From Flavisolibacter tropicus (GTDB taxonomy: Bacteria; Bacteroidota; Bacteroidia; Chitinophagales; Chitinophagaceae), in contig NZ_CP011390.1 of the NCBI RefSeq assembly GCF_001644645.1, forward strand, positions 4,522,001 to 4,586,000: a stretch of DNA of 64,000 bases, written 5' to 3'. The notes below the pieces were generated by a model that was given only the letters and a program-made list of their open reading frames with translations, was not told the origin of the DNA and did no database searches. Within the stretch, counting starts at the first letter, position 1, and every line of letters begins with the position of its first letter. Both the position numbers and the translations under genes were made by a program. Positions 42,517 through 49,207 of the stretch are shown one piece after another.

Positions 42517-42999
42517 ATGGCTTACCCAAACCTGACTTTGATTGGCGCTTTGCGTCAGGCTGCTAAACAATTAAGAGAAGGCGCTCACTATGCCTGGGGC
42601 CATCATGGAGCTTGTAATTGTGGCCATTTATTGCAGGTAGTTACGCATTTATCAAAAGAAGAGATACTAAAGCATGCTCATACCGGTATTGGTGAATGGA
42701 CAGAAATTGCAGAAGATTATTGCGAAGTAACCAGCGCACCGGCTTACTTGCTTATTGGTAAATTGGAAGCAATTGGGCTTACGCCTACTGATATTCATTG
42801 CCTAGAATACCTAAAAGACCGGGCAGTGTTGGAACGCTTGCCTGGTGGTTTTCAATGGCTGCAAAAGAATAAGGGGGAAGATGTAATTCTTTACTTTGAA
42901 ACGTTCGCTAATTTGTTGGAAGAACAATTGCTAAAATATATTGATCTGCCTGAAGTGAATACGCTGCAACATAGCGCCCTGAGGCAGTCCGTTTCGTGA
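42517..42999 (+). CDS. conserved-looking protein with HHGACNCGH motif, unknown function
   Basis: The 160-aa soluble protein contains a His/Cys cluster WGHHGACNCGH at about residues 27-37 and further His/Cys at HAHTG and EDYCEV, an arrangement that could bind a metal. The rest is mostly helical. The frame starts at a well-placed ATG and codon use is like the neighbours. I do not recognise the family. It is followed by palindromic repeats and a terminator hairpin. Confidence 0.6.
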   Translation: MAYPNLTLIGALRQAAKQLREGAHYAWGHHGACNCGHLLQVVTHLSKEEILKHAHTGIGEWTEIAEDYCEVTSAPAYLLIGKLEAIGLTPTDIHCLEYLKDRAVLERLPGGFQWLQKNKGEDVILYFETFANLLEEQLLKYIDLPEVNTLQHSALRQSVS

Positions 43000-43011
43000 A
43001 AAAAAACCTGC

Positions 43012-43066
43012 CTCCGAAGGGGGGAAGGCCCTCCTAAATCCTCCCGAAGGGAGGACTTAGCTGCCG
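43012..43066. repeat. palindromic repeat units with CCTTCGGGG-type core, copies 1-2
   Basis: Two units in inverted orientation: CTCCGAAGGGGGGAAGGCCC and CCTCCCGAAGGGAGGACTTA. Read on the minus strand they match the TCCCCCTTCGGGGGA...AGGGGGCC pattern seen at 43190-43285 and at the right end of the insertion at 47367-47391. Confidence 0.7.
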
Positions 43067-43100
43067 CACAGCACCAGAAGATTATAGAGTAATATATAAC

Positions 43101-43128
43101 AAAAGCACTCCTTCAGTGGAGTGCTTTT
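43101..43128. terminator. terminator hairpin, AAAAGCACTCC family, copy 4
   Basis: Perfect stem AAAAGCACTCC / GGAGTGCTTTT plus T-run, between the convergent 160-aa and Tricorn-like genes. Confidence 0.85.
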
Positions 43129-43189
43129 TTGTTTATTGCTCTAATTGTAAAAGTAAAGTATCGTGGCAAAGCTGGCCTCTGTGCGACGG

Positions 43190-43281
43190 TATTCTCCTCT
43201 TTCGGGGGAGTTAGAGGGGGCCGGTCTCCTCCCCTTCGGGGAGGCCGGGTGGGGCCTTACCCTTCCGGGGACAGGGGGCCG
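43190..43281. repeat. three tandem palindromic units (CCCCTTCGGGG core)
   Basis: Three successive units, each a TTCGGGG-type palindrome followed by a G-run and GGCC: CTTTCGGGGGAGTTAGAGGG, then CTCCCCTTCGGGGAGGCCGG, then CCTTCCGGGGACAGGGGGCC. The last runs up to the stop codon of the Tricorn-like gene. The same unit flanks the DUF559 insertion at 46846-47391. Confidence 0.75.
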
Positions 43282-46200
43282 CTAGAACCCTTTTTTCTCT
43301 TTTTCTTTTTTGATCTCATCCAACATTTCTTTCACGGCTCTTTCCAGTTGAGGATCTTTACCTGCCAGCACCGACTTGTAATCATTTGGCACTTTAATAT
43401 CTGGCTCTAGTTGCAGGTTTTCAGTAGGACGTCCTTCTTTTCCAATAGTGGCAATCATTGGAATACCAAATACTATTGTGGGGTCAATCTGTGTTTCCCA
43501 CCATACGGCAGTACCTGTACCAGGAACAGGCATACCAATGGTTTTACCAATACCCAGGCTCTTATAAGCATAGGGGAAGATGAAGGCATCAGAATAATTG
43601 CTTTCGCTCATGAGCACAGTAGATGGCGCCGTCCATTTATTACGTGGTTCACCCACCATAGGCTTTACACCCTGCGGTGAAAAGTCTAAGTATTTCTTAC
43701 CACTCAGGAATGTTACCAGGTCGTCGTGCAGCCAGCCACCGCCATTGAAGCGTGTATCTACAATCAGTGCTTCTTTATCAGCAGCCTTACCTAGCACGTC
43801 CTCATATACGGTGCGATAGCTACCATCGTTCATACCTTGGATATGTACGTAGCCTACTTTACCGCCCGATAGCTCTTCTACTTTTTTGCGGTTCATAGCT
43901 ACCCAACGGTTATACAACAGGTTTTGCTCTTCACCTTGTGTGATGGGTTTAGTGGTTTCTTCCCAGCGTTGTTTTGTCGTTGGATCATAAAGGCTTAACA
44001 GAACATTCTTGCTATTTTTTCGATTAAGTAAGTAGGCCCAATCTGTATTATCAGGGATAGCTTCTCCGTCGATCTTTTCAATGATCACACCTTTTTTGAT
44101 CTTGGTGCGTGCATTGATAAATGGACCACCTTCCAATACTTCCATAACCTTAACGCCTTCACCGGCATAGGTTTCATCATAGAGTAAGCCAAGCGAAGCG
44201 GTTGCGTCTGTATTCTGTTGCGGAGGTGCGTAGCGGCCACCTGTATGCGAAGCATTCAGCTCGCCAAGGAACTCACTCAATAACTCCTGGAAGTCGTAGT
44301 TGTTGTTGATATAAGGTAGGAACTTGGCATAGTCTGCGTGGTACTTATCCCAGTTCAATCCATGGATTTTCGGATCATAGAATTTCTTAGCTACCTGGCG
44401 CCAAGCGTGATCAAAGATGTAAGCTCTTTCTTTATCAGCCTTCAATACCATTTCACCATTAACTGTAACAGGGCTTACTTTTCCTGCATCAGCATCCACT
44501 TTCATGATCTTGCCATCACTAACTACAAACAATGATTTGCCGTCTTTAGAAACATCAAGACCAGCAGGACCGCCATCTAGCTTCGCAATCAGTTTGGTTT
44601 CTTTAGTGCGTGGATTGGTCATCCACAGATCATAACCTTTCTCCATTCTTGCTAAGAAGTACAATTTCTCGCCATCATTGCTTAGCATAAAGTCAGAAAT
44701 ATTGCCCGAATTAATCGTCAGGCGCATCTTACGATTATCCAATCCTTCAAACAGTGGCTCCCAGTTTTTATTTGGTGCAGCGATCTTCAGGCTGGTATCT
44801 TTCTTGGCAGCTTCTTTATCCTTGTCCTCTTTTTCTTTCAGTAAGGAAAACTCGTCTTTGGTCAGACGGAATTTATCATACGCTTCCTGGTCAAAGAACA
44901 TAGCATATACATCCACTTCACGAGCACCTTGGAAAGCCAGTGGCTTTTTACCATCGCGGTCGGTTGTCCATAATAAGGCTTTACCACCAAAGGCCCACTT
45001 GGGAGAACCATCAAAGAAGCCGCTGGTAGTTACGTTCTTACGCTGGCCACTGCCATCAGCTTTCATTAAGGCTACTTCAGAAGAGCCCCAGCGGCCTTCT
45101 GCTGAATTAAACGCCAGCCATTTGCCGTCGGGCGACCAGGTATAGTACTGGTCTCCATCGGCATACGAAAAGTTAACACCAGCAGGTACAATGGTTCTGC
45201 TTTTTTTAGTAGCGATGTTATATACTTTCAAAACATTTCGTTCTTCTAAGTAGGCGATCTCTTTTCCATCGGGAGAGATGTCGGGCTGAAATTCTTCAGC
45301 TTCTGTAGCCACTACCGGTTCTTCCTTGATCACTGTGGATGTATAGAAGTAAGGTTCTTCTTTACGCTCAATAGTAGCACGGTAAATATCCCAGCTATTG
45401 CCGCGCTCTGAAGCATAATAAAGGGTACGGCCATCAGGACTGAATTCAACACTACGCTCTTGTTCAGGCGTATTGGTAATACGTTTAGTAAAGCCACCTT
45501 CTACAGAGGTTACAAAGACCTCTCCACGCACCACAAAGGCAATCTCCTTTCCGTTGGGGGAAAGAGCTGTTTGTGTAACACCTGTATTGATTGGTAAGAT
45601 CTTTTCGGCGTTAGTGCGGGTATCTGTTCCAATGCGGATGGCTACCTTTTGTGGTGAACCACCTTCTTTCAGCGTATAAATTTCACCGTTATATGTAAAA
45701 GATAATGTACCGTCATTGGCCCGGCTTAAGTGACGTACCGGGTGGTCTTTTAATTTGGTAAGCACCTGTGTTGAGCTTTGTCCGCCCAGTACAGATTTAT
45801 AAATATTCTGAGAACCGTCTTTTTCACTCAGGTAGTAGAATGTGTTATCATCGCCACCCCATACCGGCTCACGGTCTTCGCCTTCAAAAGCCGACACTTG
45901 TGTGTATTCATCTTTCTTGGTATCGTATACCCAGATGTCGCGGGTAACGGAAGATGTATGTCGCTTGCGCCAGGCGTCTTCATAACCTTTGCGGTCCTGG
46001 AAGATCACCTTATCACCTTTGCTATTAAAATGGGCAAACTCAGAGCCTGCCGATAAGAACATTACAGAGCGGCCACCGGTTACAGGTACCTGGTATAACT
46101 TCTGGAACAAACCCTTTTGCGGGAATCGAGCAGATGTATAAACGTCATTCCGGTTAGTGCCAAACAAAACCGTCTTTCCATCAGGCGTAAAATCATAAGG

Positions 46201-46533
46201 GTAATCATTAGCCGAATGATAGGTTAGGCGACGGGCTTCACCACCTGCAGCTGGCATTACATACACGTCAAAATTGCCATAGCGGTCAGATGCAAATGCA
46301 ATCCATTTGCCATCGCGGCTCCAAACGGGCATAAAATCATGCGCTTCGTGCAAGGTTAAAGGGTAGGCCTCACCACCACTGGCGGGCACCTTGTATAGAT
46401 CACCTTTGTAGCTAAACACAATGGTTTTGCCATCCGGTGATATGGCAGGATAGCGCATCCAAAGGGGTGTTTCCTGTGCGGCGCTACTCAAGCTTACGGC
46501 TAGTGCAGCTGCAGCCATCAGTCTTTTCATCAT
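43282..46533 (-). CDS. Tricorn-like S41 protease
   Basis: The 1083-aa secreted protein (signal MMKRLMAAAALAVSLSSAAQ) has two N-terminal beta-propeller regions built from PD40-type blades such as YPAISPDGKTIVFSY and TALSPNGKEIAFVV (about 25-640), a PDZ domain (about 800-870, GVKVMEVLEGGPFINA), and a C-terminal S41 core with the nucleophile Ser at about 981 in SESNYSDAF and a preceding DTRFNGGGW oxyanion region. Homologues degrade peptides released by larger proteases. It is periplasmic here. Its start is 51 bases from the divergent M23 gene. Confidence 0.92.
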   Translation of the reverse strand: MMKRLMAAAALAVSLSSAAQETPLWMRYPAISPDGKTIVFSYKGDLYKVPASGGEAYPLTLHEAHDFMPVWSRDGKWIAFASDRYGNFDVYVMPAAGGEARRLTYHSANDYPYDFTPDGKTVLFGTNRNDVYTSARFPQKGLFQKLYQVPVTGGRSVMFLSAGSEFAHFNSKGDKVIFQDRKGYEDAWRKRHTSSVTRDIWVYDTKKDEYTQVSAFEGEDREPVWGGDDNTFYYLSEKDGSQNIYKSVLGGQSSTQVLTKLKDHPVRHLSRANDGTLSFTYNGEIYTLKEGGSPQKVAIRIGTDTRTNAEKILPINTGVTQTALSPNGKEIAFVVRGEVFVTSVEGGFTKRITNTPEQERSVEFSPDGRTLYYASERGNSWDIYRATIERKEEPYFYTSTVIKEEPVVATEAEEFQPDISPDGKEIAYLEERNVLKVYNIATKKSRTIVPAGVNFSYADGDQYYTWSPDGKWLAFNSAEGRWGSSEVALMKADGSGQRKNVTTSGFFDGSPKWAFGGKALLWTTDRDGKKPLAFQGAREVDVYAMFFDQEAYDKFRLTKDEFSLLKEKEDKDKEAAKKDTSLKIAAPNKNWEPLFEGLDNRKMRLTINSGNISDFMLSNDGEKLYFLARMEKGYDLWMTNPRTKETKLIAKLDGGPAGLDVSKDGKSLFVVSDGKIMKVDADAGKVSPVTVNGEMVLKADKERAYIFDHAWRQVAKKFYDPKIHGLNWDKYHADYAKFLPYINNNYDFQELLSEFLGELNASHTGGRYAPPQQNTDATASLGLLYDETYAGEGVKVMEVLEGGPFINARTKIKKGVIIEKIDGEAIPDNTDWAYLLNRKNSKNVLLSLYDPTTKQRWEETTKPITQGEEQNLLYNRWVAMNRKKVEELSGGKVGYVHIQGMNDGSYRTVYEDVLGKAADKEALIVDTRFNGGGWLHDDLVTFLSGKKYLDFSPQGVKPMVGEPRNKWTAPSTVLMSESNYSDAFIFPYAYKSLGIGKTIGMPVPGTGTAVWWETQIDPTIVFGIPMIATIGKEGRPTENLQLEPDIKVPNDYKSVLAGKDPQLERAVKEMLDEIKKEKEKKGF

Positions 46534-46584
46534 GTGCTTTAATTTAGTTTTGTGGGATGTCCTTAAAATTATTGAAGACTTGTT

Positions 46585-47820
46585 ATGGTTAAAAATAAAT
46601 TTGAAGAGCGGTTAAATGCATGTAAGGTTGATTTTCACGCGGTTGTACCTGTACAGAAAACAGACAAACTTTTACGCTTAGACTTTACGGCTAACAACAC
46701 AGAATTAACGCCTGAGATCTTATCCAATACAATCCTTTTCTCTGAATATGTAGACAAGCAGCTGAAACAAGCCGGTGCTACTTATGGTATTGGTGGTTAC
46801 AATGAGCACCGGACTATTTATAGCAGGAGTGAGGTTTTTGATGGAGCAGCCCCCTCAGTGGCCCCTCCTTGCCTCCCCGAAGGGGATGACCTCAACGCAC
46901 AAGGCCAGCTTGAGGAAGATGATGAGGAGGATTTGGATAGTTTATTAGGCGAGAGGGAAGGTAGCTATGGCTGCCAATGGGCGGATCCATTTTATTATAA
47001 GCAGTTGAAAGAATATGCTTTAAGCCATAGAAAACAGCCTACGCATGCTGAAGCAGTTTTATGGTATGCTTTGAAGGGACGACAACTAGGAGGATATCGC
47101 TTTAGGCAACAACATATTATTGACAAGTATATCGCCGATTTTGTGTGTTTAGGCAAACGTCTTATAATTGAAGTTGATGGTTTGATTCATCAACTTCCAG
47201 ATAATAAAGAAAGTGGTCAAGCTAGAAGTGAGGCGCTAATACAAAAAGGCTTTACCGTTATCCGGTTCACAAACGACCAAGTGTTACATCAAAAAGATCA
47301 AGTCCTTCAAACTATTCTCTTACGTTTAAGCCAATTGCCAAGTATAAAGGAACAATCTGACCTAAGTTCCCCCTTCGGGGGAAAGGGGGCCGAGCCGCGT
47401 CGATTGCATTTAGGTACTGACATTTGGGGACCAGTAGATACGCCGATATATGCGCCTTTAGCAGGAACCGTCCATAGCGTAGGTTTTAATGATGCCTATG
47501 GCGATTATGGTGCAACCCTGATCCTGCAGCATGAAATCAATGGCTTAATCTTTCATACCTTATATGGTCATTTAAGCTTAAACTCTATCCAGGATAAACA
47601 GCAAGGGCAGGAGATCGAGAAGGGGGCCTGGATAGCGAGTTTTGGTGATATAGCTGAAAATGGTAACTGGCCGCCACATTTACATTTTCAGTTGATCTTG
47701 GATATGCAAGGCTATAATGGTGATTATCCCGGCGTTTGTCGGTTTTCCGAAAGGGAAAGCTACCTCTACAACTGTCCGAACCCTGAACTCATCCTTGGTA
47801 TGGAACAGTTTGTTTTATGA
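46585..47820 (+). CDS. M23 metallopeptidase interrupted in frame by a DUF559 nuclease domain
   Basis: The 411-aa frame joins three parts. Residues 1-87 form the N-terminal part of an M23 peptidase (ending GGYNEHRTIYSRSEVFDG). Residues about 88-269 are foreign to the family: an acidic linker, then a DUF559 domain (139-250) with QQHIIDKYIADF and LIIEVDG, the D...ExD core of the Vsr-like PD-(D/E)xK nucleases. Residues 270-411 resume the peptidase with zinc ligands H275/D279 (LHLGTDIWG) and HLH 365-367. The insert has TTCGGGG palindromes at both ends. There is no signal peptide. The product may be a working fusion or a tolerated insertion; no intein motifs are seen. Confidence 0.85.
   Translation: MVKNKFEERLNACKVDFHAVVPVQKTDKLLRLDFTANNTELTPEILSNTILFSEYVDKQLKQAGATYGIGGYNEHRTIYSRSEVFDGAAPSVAPPCLPEGDDLNAQGQLEEDDEEDLDSLLGEREGSYGCQWADPFYYKQLKEYALSHRKQPTHAEAVLWYALKGRQLGGYRFRQQHIIDKYIADFVCLGKRLIIEVDGLIHQLPDNKESGQARSEALIQKGFTVIRFTNDQVLHQKDQVLQTILLRLSQLPSIKEQSDLSSPFGGKGAEPRRLHLGTDIWGPVDTPIYAPLAGTVHSVGFNDAYGDYGATLILQHEINGLIFHTLYGHLSLNSIQDKQQGQEIEKGAWIASFGDIAENGNWPPHLHFQLILDMQGYNGDYPGVCRFSERESYLYNCPNPELILGMEQFVL
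46846..47391 (+). mobile_element. DUF559 module bounded by TTCGGGG palindromes, inserted in a peptidase gene
   Basis: About 546 bp (182 codons, a multiple of three) interrupts the M23 gene just before its first zinc-binding motif. The left end carries CCTCCCCGAAGGGGATGACC and the right end TTCCCCCTTCGGGGGAAAGG then GGGCC; the left end read on the other strand matches the right in order (CCCCTTCGGGG, A/G run, GGGGCC), so the ends are imperfect inverted repeats. Boundaries are estimated by where M23 similarity stops and resumes. No target duplication was identified. Confidence 0.65.
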
Positions 47821-47938
47821 CCTTCTTGTCATTTTGGGGTTGTAAATTGAAAGTATAAAAGCTAATTTTAGACTTCTCGCCATACATGCACTGTATCTAA
47901 TGATAGCTACTTTTTTTAAACAGCTAAAATGAACAGTT

Positions 47939-49207
47939 ATGGCATTCAATCTTCTGGATACCGTTCGCGGCTATCTGTCTCCAAGTTTAGTGGAAAGAGC
48001 CAGTAGTTATTTGGGTGAATCTCCAACTGGTATTAACAAGGCACTTACTGCTATCATTCCCACAGTGTTGGGCATGTTTGTCAATCGTGCTGAAACAGGT
48101 AATGCGCAAGGCTTATTAAATGATGCCTATGAGGCTGCTGACAGTAATGTATTAAGCCAGCCGCAGCGTTTGTTTACTGGTGAAATGAGTTCTTTTCTGA
48201 CTGGAGGTTTGGGTCGACTTGAGAATTTGCTAGGTGGTAATGCCTCAAATATCCTTTCATCTATTGGCAATTTTGCTGGCATAAAGTCAAATGCCGTTCA
48301 AGGACTTATGGGTATTATTGCTCCTATTGGTTTAGGAGTTATAGGAAGGCATGCAAGAGAAGAAAATTTGTCTGCTCAGGGGTTGACGTCCTATCTGTCT
48401 AGTCAAAAAGCTGATATTGGCAATGCGTTGCCATCAGGATTTTCATTAGATAGCTTTCTTGGCGAACCACTCAGAGCTGGCCGTACAACAACTATTACAG
48501 GCGAAACACCTCGAATGGCACGTGTGGAGACCGTGCCCGAGCGGCGAAAGTCTAGTATGATGGCCTGGTTACTGTTAGGACTTGGAGCTATTGCTTTGAT
48601 TTGGCTCTTAAATCGTAACAGAAACGATAATACAACATCAACTGCAAAAACCAATATTACTACTACGGAAAACCGTGCAGCAAAAGCGCCAACAACTACA
48701 ACAACAGAAGCACCGATAACTACAACAACGATTGAAACGAATAGAGCTGCGGTAAGAGTGCGGTTGACAAATGGAGTGGAAATAGATGCCTATAAGGGAG
48801 GTATAGAAGATAAGTTGGTGAACTGTTTAAATGACGCTAGTTGTACTGCAGGAAAAGAAAAGTGGTTTGACTTTGATAATATCAATTTTGAAACCGGTAG
48901 TGCACAGCTTACACCATCCAGCCAGCTGCAGGTCCGTAACATTGTATCGATCTTAAATGCCTATCCAAATGCCAAAATTAAAATAGGCGGTTATACAGAT
49001 AAAACTGGCAATGATGCGGCTAATAAGACCTTAAGCCAGCAGCGCGCTGATGCTGTATTGAATGCCATAAAAAATTCTGGTGCAAATACAAGCCAATTAG
49101 TGGGGGCTGAAGGCTATGGGTCTGCCTTTGCGAAAGTACCAGCAATTGCATCAGATGAAGAAAGACGACAAGATAGAAGGATTGCTGTGCAACTGCGCAG
49201 TAAATAA
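47939..49207 (+). CDS. DUF937-OmpA fusion protein
   Basis: The 422-aa protein has an N-terminal DUF937 helical domain (about 1-175, rich in GLL/GIAP motifs such as LMGIIAPIGLGVIG), a single membrane helix (about 204-222, MAWLLLGLGAIALIWLL), a Thr-rich linker (225-265), and a C-terminal OmpA/MotB peptidoglycan-binding domain (about 300-420: FETGSAQLTPSSQLQV, IGGYTDKTGNDAANKTLSQQRA, DRRIAV). With no signal peptide, the DUF937 part is predicted to be cytoplasmic and the OmpA part periplasmic, anchoring the inner membrane to the wall. A terminator follows. Confidence 0.88.
   Translation: MAFNLLDTVRGYLSPSLVERASSYLGESPTGINKALTAIIPTVLGMFVNRAETGNAQGLLNDAYEAADSNVLSQPQRLFTGEMSSFLTGGLGRLENLLGGNASNILSSIGNFAGIKSNAVQGLMGIIAPIGLGVIGRHAREENLSAQGLTSYLSSQKADIGNALPSGFSLDSFLGEPLRAGRTTTITGETPRMARVETVPERRKSSMMAWLLLGLGAIALIWLLNRNRNDNTTSTAKTNITTTENRAAKAPTTTTTEAPITTTTIETNRAAVRVRLTNGVEIDAYKGGIEDKLVNCLNDASCTAGKEKWFDFDNINFETGSAQLTPSSQLQVRNIVSILNAYPNAKIKIGGYTDKTGNDAANKTLSQQRADAVLNAIKNSGANTSQLVGAEGYGSAFAKVPAIASDEERRQDRRIAVQLRSK

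Follow-up and report, generated by a model that had tools for sequence, protein, structure and literature searches.

How did a nuclease domain of the DUF559 family come to lie in frame within an M23-family peptidase gene of Flavisolibacter tropicus, and is it a copy of a mobile element? The gene in question is a single 411-aa ORF on the + strand (46585..47820 of the window, i.e., the whole 64,000-nucleotide stretch of DNA that was analyzed), in which Pfam detects DUF559 at residues 140-248 (1.6e-31) and M23 at residues 274-372 (1.6e-15). An earlier reading of this DNA (the sequence-only reading) had proposed that the former belongs to an in-frame module that entered the peptidase gene right before its first zinc-ligand motif, that inverted palindromes bound it, and that it moved as a unit in a manner possibly analogous to REP/RAYT systems or homing endonucleases.

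The insert and its ends

Alignment to uninterrupted M23 homologs, viz., P0040, P0042, and P0043, and to loci of the genus fixes the edges of the module to about 5 residues and bears out its in-frame state: it comprises 182 codons (46846..47391, + strand; residues 88-269), with the M23 domain following 3' of it (47404..47700, + strand). The insert sits between VFDG and EPRRLHLG of the peptidase, the window's VFDG-insert-EPRRLHLG corresponding to VFD-GVSGEEG-RRLHLG in P0040; in both P0040 and P0042 (233 and 244 aa) VFD is linked to RRLHLG by about 7 residues. The point of entry is, as proposed, just upstream of H275 and D279, which we take to be the first zinc-ligand motif (HxxxD) of M23. The host part of the window protein (87 + 142 residues) is 83% identical to the uninterrupted P0040 and P0042, and 82% and 79% identical to the closest interrupted proteins, P0003 and P0002 respectively; its relatives are equally close whether or not they have the module. 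The sequence-only reading had held that an ancient fusion would be indicated if uninterrupted homologs did not exist and all related M23 proteins carried the domain at this site. Such homologs do exist (P0040 and P0042), 12 of the 18 M23 loci of the genus are without the module, and in the genus loci and M23 relatives compared the domain is not present at the site in all. Names recovered in the search for M23 relatives include Flavisolibacter sp. BT320 and Flaviaesturariibacter sp., and both Pfam domains occur together in 42 other proteins among the 120 matches listed; databases label fused proteins of this sort 'very-short-patch-repair endonuclease'. The M23 orthology rests mainly on identity, since a tricorn-like gene is present in the fetched flanks of 6/17 loci and an OmpA-like gene in 4/17. 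In one genome (L036 and L038; G017:C1:4814753-4816386) there are two tandem M23 genes, one of which was checked and is uninterrupted. No intron or intein was found at the insert, there being no splicing domain among the Pfam matches of the 411-aa protein and no Rfam RNA match at window positions 42800-48000. The focal copy looks old.

The DUF559 (Vsr-like) nuclease domain (47002..47328, + strand) has the D...ExD core claimed for it, with D46, E57, D59, and H63 of the domain present, though D72 is replaced by glycine. It is the sole DUF559 domain found in its genome, and the D72G change is unique, 106 of the 107 in-gene copies compared having aspartate at this position, which makes the activity of the window's copy doubtful. 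The D..ExD residues are intact in all 107 (68 found by a search pattern requiring E, D, G, and H, and 39 by a profile free of that bias), and in 10/15 pairs, namely those for which dN/dS is calculable, the embedded nuclease has a value of 0.02-0.17. Profile comparison matches the domain to PDB chain 3r3p ('Mobile intron protein'; 4.1e-7), which we take to be I-Bth0305I, and better to 3hrl (2.9e-31), which is named endonuclease-like only. At the thresholds used, no domains other than DUF559 (with related nuclease models) and those of the hosts are detected in the insert and its scanned relatives; the focal protein has an additional sub-threshold Pfam match to PX.

Palindromes in inverted order, each followed by GGGGCC, were correctly read at both ends of the module. 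The left one with its tail reads outward (46860..46885, - strand; the reverse complement of CCCCTTCGGGGAGGCAAGGAGGGGCC), and the right-end repeat GACCTAAGTTCCCCCTTCGGGGGAAAGGGGGCC, which resembles ends at other loci, lies at 47359..47391 on the + strand, its portion 47370-47391 being CCCCTTCGGGGGAAAGGGGGCC. The two ends are inverted to each other, and each is a hairpin followed by an outward GGGGCC. Outside the palindromes they match poorly, with a terminal inverted-repeat score of 11.5 that equals the shuffle maximum. Among the 22 left ends compared, those nearest to the left end of the focal copy belong to inserts in tryptophan 2,3-dioxygenase (TDO) genes (L082, L083); sequences like its right end occur in its own genome (L012, L014), at L089, L091, L174, L176, and L191, and in a MITE family of another genome of the genus (G009).

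The repeat is dispersed in the genome. The 11-mer CCCCTTCGGGG has 3 copies in the window, where 0.02 are expected, and 33 in the genome, where the reversed control has 2, and the full form of hairpin plus GGGGCC has 18 genomic copies against 0 for the reversed control. Apart from those of the insert there are 16 copies, and 15 of them are either outside any open frame of at least 110 aa or at most 20 residues from a frame end, the exception (L009) having 63 and 152 residues of frame on its sides. At G000:C1:4376823-4377034, a pair resembling the two ends of the insert is found 212 bp apart without a nuclease. A related palindrome also lies elsewhere in the window (L016; 43231..43256, + strand), the middle one in a run of three palindrome-plus-tail units (43198-43281) at the 3' end of the neighboring tricorn-like gene. 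At this locus, and at L003, L007, L010, and L011 of the same genome, left-end-type palindromes lie near a terminator-like stem with, as judged by eye, GCACTCC/GGAGTGC-type arms, as if a longer repeat included a transcription terminator.

Insertion sites in the genus and host families across the phylum

Searches of 18 genomes of the genus for PF04480 recovered the domain in 15, of which we count 14, since the sole match in one (G002) is weak and lies in a long frame. We examined 41 of the 43 strong copies (those at G016:C81 and one of G017 not among them), leaving out 7 weak PF04480 rows in long frames and, from the trees, L116 and L117. Sixteen of the 41 are in host frames, viz., M23 (three), LeuRS (four), TDO (two), RecQ, IspG, and MetH (one each), and ArgB and DUF5522 (two each, with the module N-terminal); hosts were identified by Pfam, and MetH in the genus by sequence reading. 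The six internal host sites, with 104 loci classed by eye, comprise 12 full, 15 palindromic without DUF559, 74 native, 2 unresolved, and 1 ambiguous locus; in this scheme loci with 6-bp stems (L157, L134) are native, those with 5-bp stems plus the tail motif (L172, L191) palindromic, and L188 ambiguous. All six sites are found in three states: empty, occupied by DUF559, or occupied by a short palindromic insert without a nuclease. Thus, the 18 loci of the M23 site include 3 full, 1 short palindromic, 12 native, and 2 not resolved by the script (one separately read copy of G017 is uninterrupted). The corresponding numbers of full, palindromic nuclease-less, and native loci are 4, 2, and 12 for LeuRS, 2, 1, and 14 for TDO, 1, 1, and 14 for RecQ, 1, 7, and 10 for IspG, and 1, 3, and 12 for MetH, the last with the 1 ambiguous locus in addition.

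The resolved gap lengths are all multiples of three, as is expected for genes staying open, with the exception of the MetH locus L090 (G017), which contains an 11-N stretch. The right-end hairpin is translated in differing frames in L146 and L192, and host loop residues have often been replaced at the site, TDO being the clearest case. The frame-keeping stressed in the earlier proposal is probably better read as survivorship, with selection filtering for insertions in tolerant loops. The junctions carry inverted repeats, e.g., a perfect 40-bp one in the LeuRS gene of G013 (L081). Two copies have unusual surroundings: at L087 (G001:C30) the DUF559 gene lies inside nested inverted palindromes of two types, which suggests stacked insertions, and at L080 (G008:C19) the copy is flanked by repeated GGCTGGCGCACCAAATAG-type units and not by the usual ends.

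An even draw of 148 genomes from the window's phylum yielded DUF559 in 63, with 136 copies, 25 of them in frames of at least 300 aa. In a scan of GTDB genomes, 68 of the best 80 of at least 579 loci are in such frames, a share biased by the use of this clade as the query. By the names in their titles these 80 are all from Bacteroidota, except for one Candidatus Nitrotoga MAG; the DUF559-bearing MetH of that MAG (L232) shows ~74% DNA identity to that of Flavobacterium cucumis (L263), and its contig is probably misbinned. Pfam scans of 45 frames (one free-standing and two without a host match) distinguish 27 host families. Beyond those of the genus, these include IleRS-, MetRS-, and PheT-type synthetases, CinA, UvrA (at two sites), RecG, adenine deaminase, an aldehyde dehydrogenase/MaoC protein, urocanase, an epimerase, methylmalonyl-CoA mutase, PurL, QueG, formylglutamate amidohydrolase, and five kinds of restriction-modification protein, names such as IleRS, MetRS, RecQ, and PaaZ-like being our reading of the Pfam matches. 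The module is at the protein end in four families (ArgB, DUF5522, QueG, and formylglutamate amidohydrolase). Those in restriction-modification proteins (HsdR, HsdM, and others) come from outside the genus (L275, L276, L280, L281, L282, L291, L292, L295). Viral relatives of the domain (68) are distant, at most 45% identical. Judged from these sequences, related modules reside inside many unrelated, often essential, genes across Bacteroidota, which suggests that they are an undescribed sort of mobile element living inside working proteins.

Covariation of ends and nucleases, and the evidence for movement

The terminal inverted repeats of the modules were scored against random positions of the same loci, with two genus copies and one other left out on account of short flanks. 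Scores of at least 16 are reached by 26/39 genus copies against 1/380 control positions, by 37 of the best 80 GTDB loci against 4/806, and by 13/39 copies of the phylum draw against 2/222. Against shuffled flanks, 31/41 genus copies (a few of them not of the palindromic type) and 54 of the best 80 GTDB loci exceed the shuffle maximum. Of the 68 in-gene loci among the best 80 from GTDB, 36 do not rise above the 99th percentile of the controls, and the RecG copies, four in number, all score low within their sets. Among the 74 copies with a score of at least 16, nuclease identity and repeat similarity covary (r 0.42, 0/1000 permutations), and they do so within the genus as well (r 0.35, 0/1000 permutations), pairs in the same host or more than 85% identical having been excluded; genome relatedness may contribute to this covariation. 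The evidence that palindromes and DUF559 occur together in the genus is weak, because the patterns derive from the flanks of DUF559 copies and not all genomes are complete: two strict own-type palindrome patterns are present in 12/14 DUF559 genomes and 1/4 others (p 0.044), and in 11/14 once the elements' own ends are subtracted (p 0.083). One genome (G003) has 45 palindromes of one type, yet the ends of its one DUF559 differ from these at several positions.

In the tree of 39 genus domains, the nucleases in recQ (G012) and leuS (G014) are sisters (99/98), and one clade (96/93) unites copies in M23, TDO, ispG, metH, and DUF5522 with one free copy. In a wider tree of 158 domains (107 in-gene), the 36 labels (35 for host sites and one for free copies), which unscanned members received according to their cluster and position, need 50 changes, whereas shuffled labels need at least 91; 9 changes are needed for the 31 copies at MetH site b and 9 for the 13 copies at LeuRS site 1. 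Support in this tree is often weak, and the 96/93 clade of the genus tree is broken up there. In G009, the left end of the ispG insert is nearest to that of the M23 insert (63 vs 49 for the next neighbor); for the M23 left end, the next neighbor after the ispG end scores 51.5.

Short elements with such ends are dispersed outside genes as MITE families, the fetched copies of which were picked as inverted pairs. The G003 family (12 copies fetched, 9 of 215-217 bp) and the G009 family (8 copies fetched, 7 of 275-286 bp) both have exact inverted ends and unrelated flanks, and the interiors of the G009 elements are of more than one sort. The 12 G003 copies show no excess of target-site duplication (direct-repeat lengths sum to 10 vs a shuffled mean of 14). 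Within the G003 element of ~215 bp (L383-L394) an internal stem, AGAGCGGATGCC/GGCATCCGCTCT, is followed by T, like a built-in terminator. We also inspected larger inverted palindrome pairs (L403-L422) by way of an ORF listing, and the long ones (L403, L404) appear by eye to be intergenic DNA lying between the ends of genes.

An all-against-all comparison revealed no recent jump of a full element, its best 70 DNA pairs all being at like loci. One such match, L102 vs L274 (100% identical over 1309 bp), probably reflects a single genome present in both collections; L274 was excluded from the wider tree and the covariation test but counted in the GTDB end statistics. At 4-fold sites, insert and host show no significant difference in 13/14 pairs (15-42 insert sites per pair, with some pairs sharing members), which points to vertical inheritance. 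The CinA pair is the exception, its insert being less diverged than its host (0.21 vs 0.55, p 0.001, in one of 14 tests). The comparable copies thus look to have been inherited mostly vertically under purifying selection, and mobility is evident on evolutionary time only. The idea that the module moved as a unit gains comparative support: DUF559 genes elsewhere, which the sequence-only reading had wished to see compared for shared flanks, are related nucleases with related ends in unrelated genes, nuclease-less short forms occupy the same sites, and the likeness of the G009 ispG and M23 left ends and the dispersed MITE families agree with this. It is tempered by the mostly vertical descent of comparable copies and the apparent age of the focal copy.

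Known systems and rival explanations

The analogy with REP/RAYT holds in architecture and fails in membership. As in those systems, one small nuclease gene lies between two inverted hairpin repeats (true of the family; in the focal copy the palindromes are present, but the ends match poorly overall), DUF559-type repeats are dispersed in the genome, also as inverted pairs, and repeat type and protein lineage covary. Unlike in REP/RAYT, the gene of the element encodes a PD-(D/E)xK Vsr-like nuclease, with no Y1 (HUH) transposase detected by Pfam between the repeats in the insert and scanned relatives. The ends, read by eye, show GGGGCC, GGGGTGAGG, or similar, and no GTAG or GTGG tag beside the hairpin (the tag as defined in PMC6006769); further, full elements are in frame within unrelated, often essential, genes. 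Rickettsia palindromic elements (RPEs), which are palindromic inserts lying in frame, have appeared in the literature since 2002 or earlier. The accessible portion of PMC10969869 describes these as short palindromic inserts, in frame in unrelated protein genes and translated with the host, and names no mobilizer for them. Short palindromic inserts translated in frame inside unrelated genes are found here too (15/104 loci without DUF559, 12 with; the frame of L090 is masked by Ns). In our case, nuclease-encoding forms share sites with the short ones, a partner that this portion of PMC10969869 does not name for RPEs, and the phylum is different; the likeness drawn here is one of description. The nuclease domain is related by profile (3r3p, 4.1e-7) to EDxHD homing endonucleases, for which I-Bth0305I is given as an example in the excerpted text of PMC3943268; the DUF559 insert differs in having no further Pfam domain, many host sites, and palindromic ends. 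Finally, Caulobacter VsrA has the same Pfam domain as the insert; PMC12907096 reports a DNA damage response that depends on VsrA, and links VsrA itself to cytosine methylation and mismatch repair; 'palindrom' is absent from that text. No description of such an element was found in the open literature searched, a scope mostly outside subscription journals. We file it as a new variant among palindrome-bounded mobile elements, REP/RAYT-like but working with a different enzyme, and outside the REP/RAYT, RPE, and homing families.

The explanation that we favor, at somewhat better than even chances, is that the insert is one copy from a palindrome-bounded, REP-like family of mobile elements of Bacteroidota that has a Vsr/EDxHD-type nuclease, and not a transposase, as its partner. 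The full element would consist of two inverted hairpin-forming REP-like ends around one small Vsr/EDxHD-type (DUF559) nuclease gene, and the shorter derivatives would have the ends and lack the gene. We infer that the nuclease recognizes the ends and drives the copying or movement: it would nick or cut at the hairpin ends, both those of the element that encodes it and those of related short copies, and host repair would copy the element to a new place; target duplication is absent from the single MITE family in which it was sought. In-gene copies would presumably survive only in a tolerant loop, in phase and stop-free, where the nuclease would be translated as part of the host protein, the end state seen here; most copies would then be inherited with the host gene and keep the active site, as do the pairs and copies compared. 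Against this explanation, nothing ties DUF559 directly to movement, and purifying selection on the insert would also fit domestication.

The foremost rival, which we consider unlikely, is site-specific homing, wherein DUF559 would act as a homing endonuclease without an intron or intein that copies itself into empty alleles, always at one site, with the palindromes either incidental or serving as its recognition site. The match to the 'Mobile intron protein' at 4.1e-7, the use of the same host sites by different nuclease lineages (e.g., the 9 changes among 13 copies at LeuRS site 1), and the CinA pair (0.21 vs 0.55, p 0.001, albeit one of 14 tests) speak in its favor; but the host sites are many and apparently unrelated, nuclease-less forms at these sites and intergenic MITE families have such ends, and 13/14 pairs lack a significant sign of recent exchange. 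That DUF559 is instead a domesticated accessory domain of an ancient functional fusion, no longer or never mobile, is improbable. Its vertical inheritance, purifying selection, and conserved catalytic residues accord with that view, which nevertheless has to contend with a patchy presence within one genus where the empty site is the common state, with 27 unrelated host families, with end palindromes common to repeats elsewhere in the genome, and with nuclease-less inserts at the same sites.

We give a similarly small chance to the palindromes being ordinary REPs moved by RAYT (Y1) transposases, with DUF559 a passenger caught between two of them. RAYT-type genes (at 1e-10) are indeed present in 13/18 genus genomes, with palindromic flanks of their own (L423-L452); inverted repeats are found at 18/30 RAYT loci, and one (L443) shares its CCCCGAAGGGG core with the window's genome. 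However, the RAYT repeats look different, with GTAG/CTAC in 12 of those 18, and a strict DUF559-type palindrome within 500 bp occurs at 1/30 RAYT loci as against 8/41 DUF559 loci. Moreover, neither the window's genome (3 weak Y1 matches at 1e-7) nor G014 (62% complete) has a RAYT at 1e-10, though both have palindromes, and the DUF559 lineage and palindrome type covary. The RAYT and DUF559 systems look parallel.

Beyond the favored reading of the insert as a copy of a nuclease-partnered, REP-like element, we advance tentatively, at slightly below even chances, a broader view in which selfish elements persist phylum-wide as translated domains in essential proteins. In this view, a Vsr-like nuclease would form an autonomous unit together with its own hairpin ends and would move both itself and nuclease-less palindromic derivatives, in parallel with REP/RAYT though independently of it. 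The unit would be an autonomous partner of the kind missing so far for RPE-like in-frame palindromes. As the nuclease-bearing and nuclease-less forms share sites and ends, the question of the mobilizer becomes testable. If true, this would represent a route for mobile DNA to add whole domains, without splicing, to essential enzymes such as aminoacyl-tRNA synthetases, IspG, MetH, UvrA, and RecG; it would explain the fused proteins that bear the 'very-short-patch-repair endonuclease' name in databases, and would furnish a nuclease-based counterpart to REP/RAYT.
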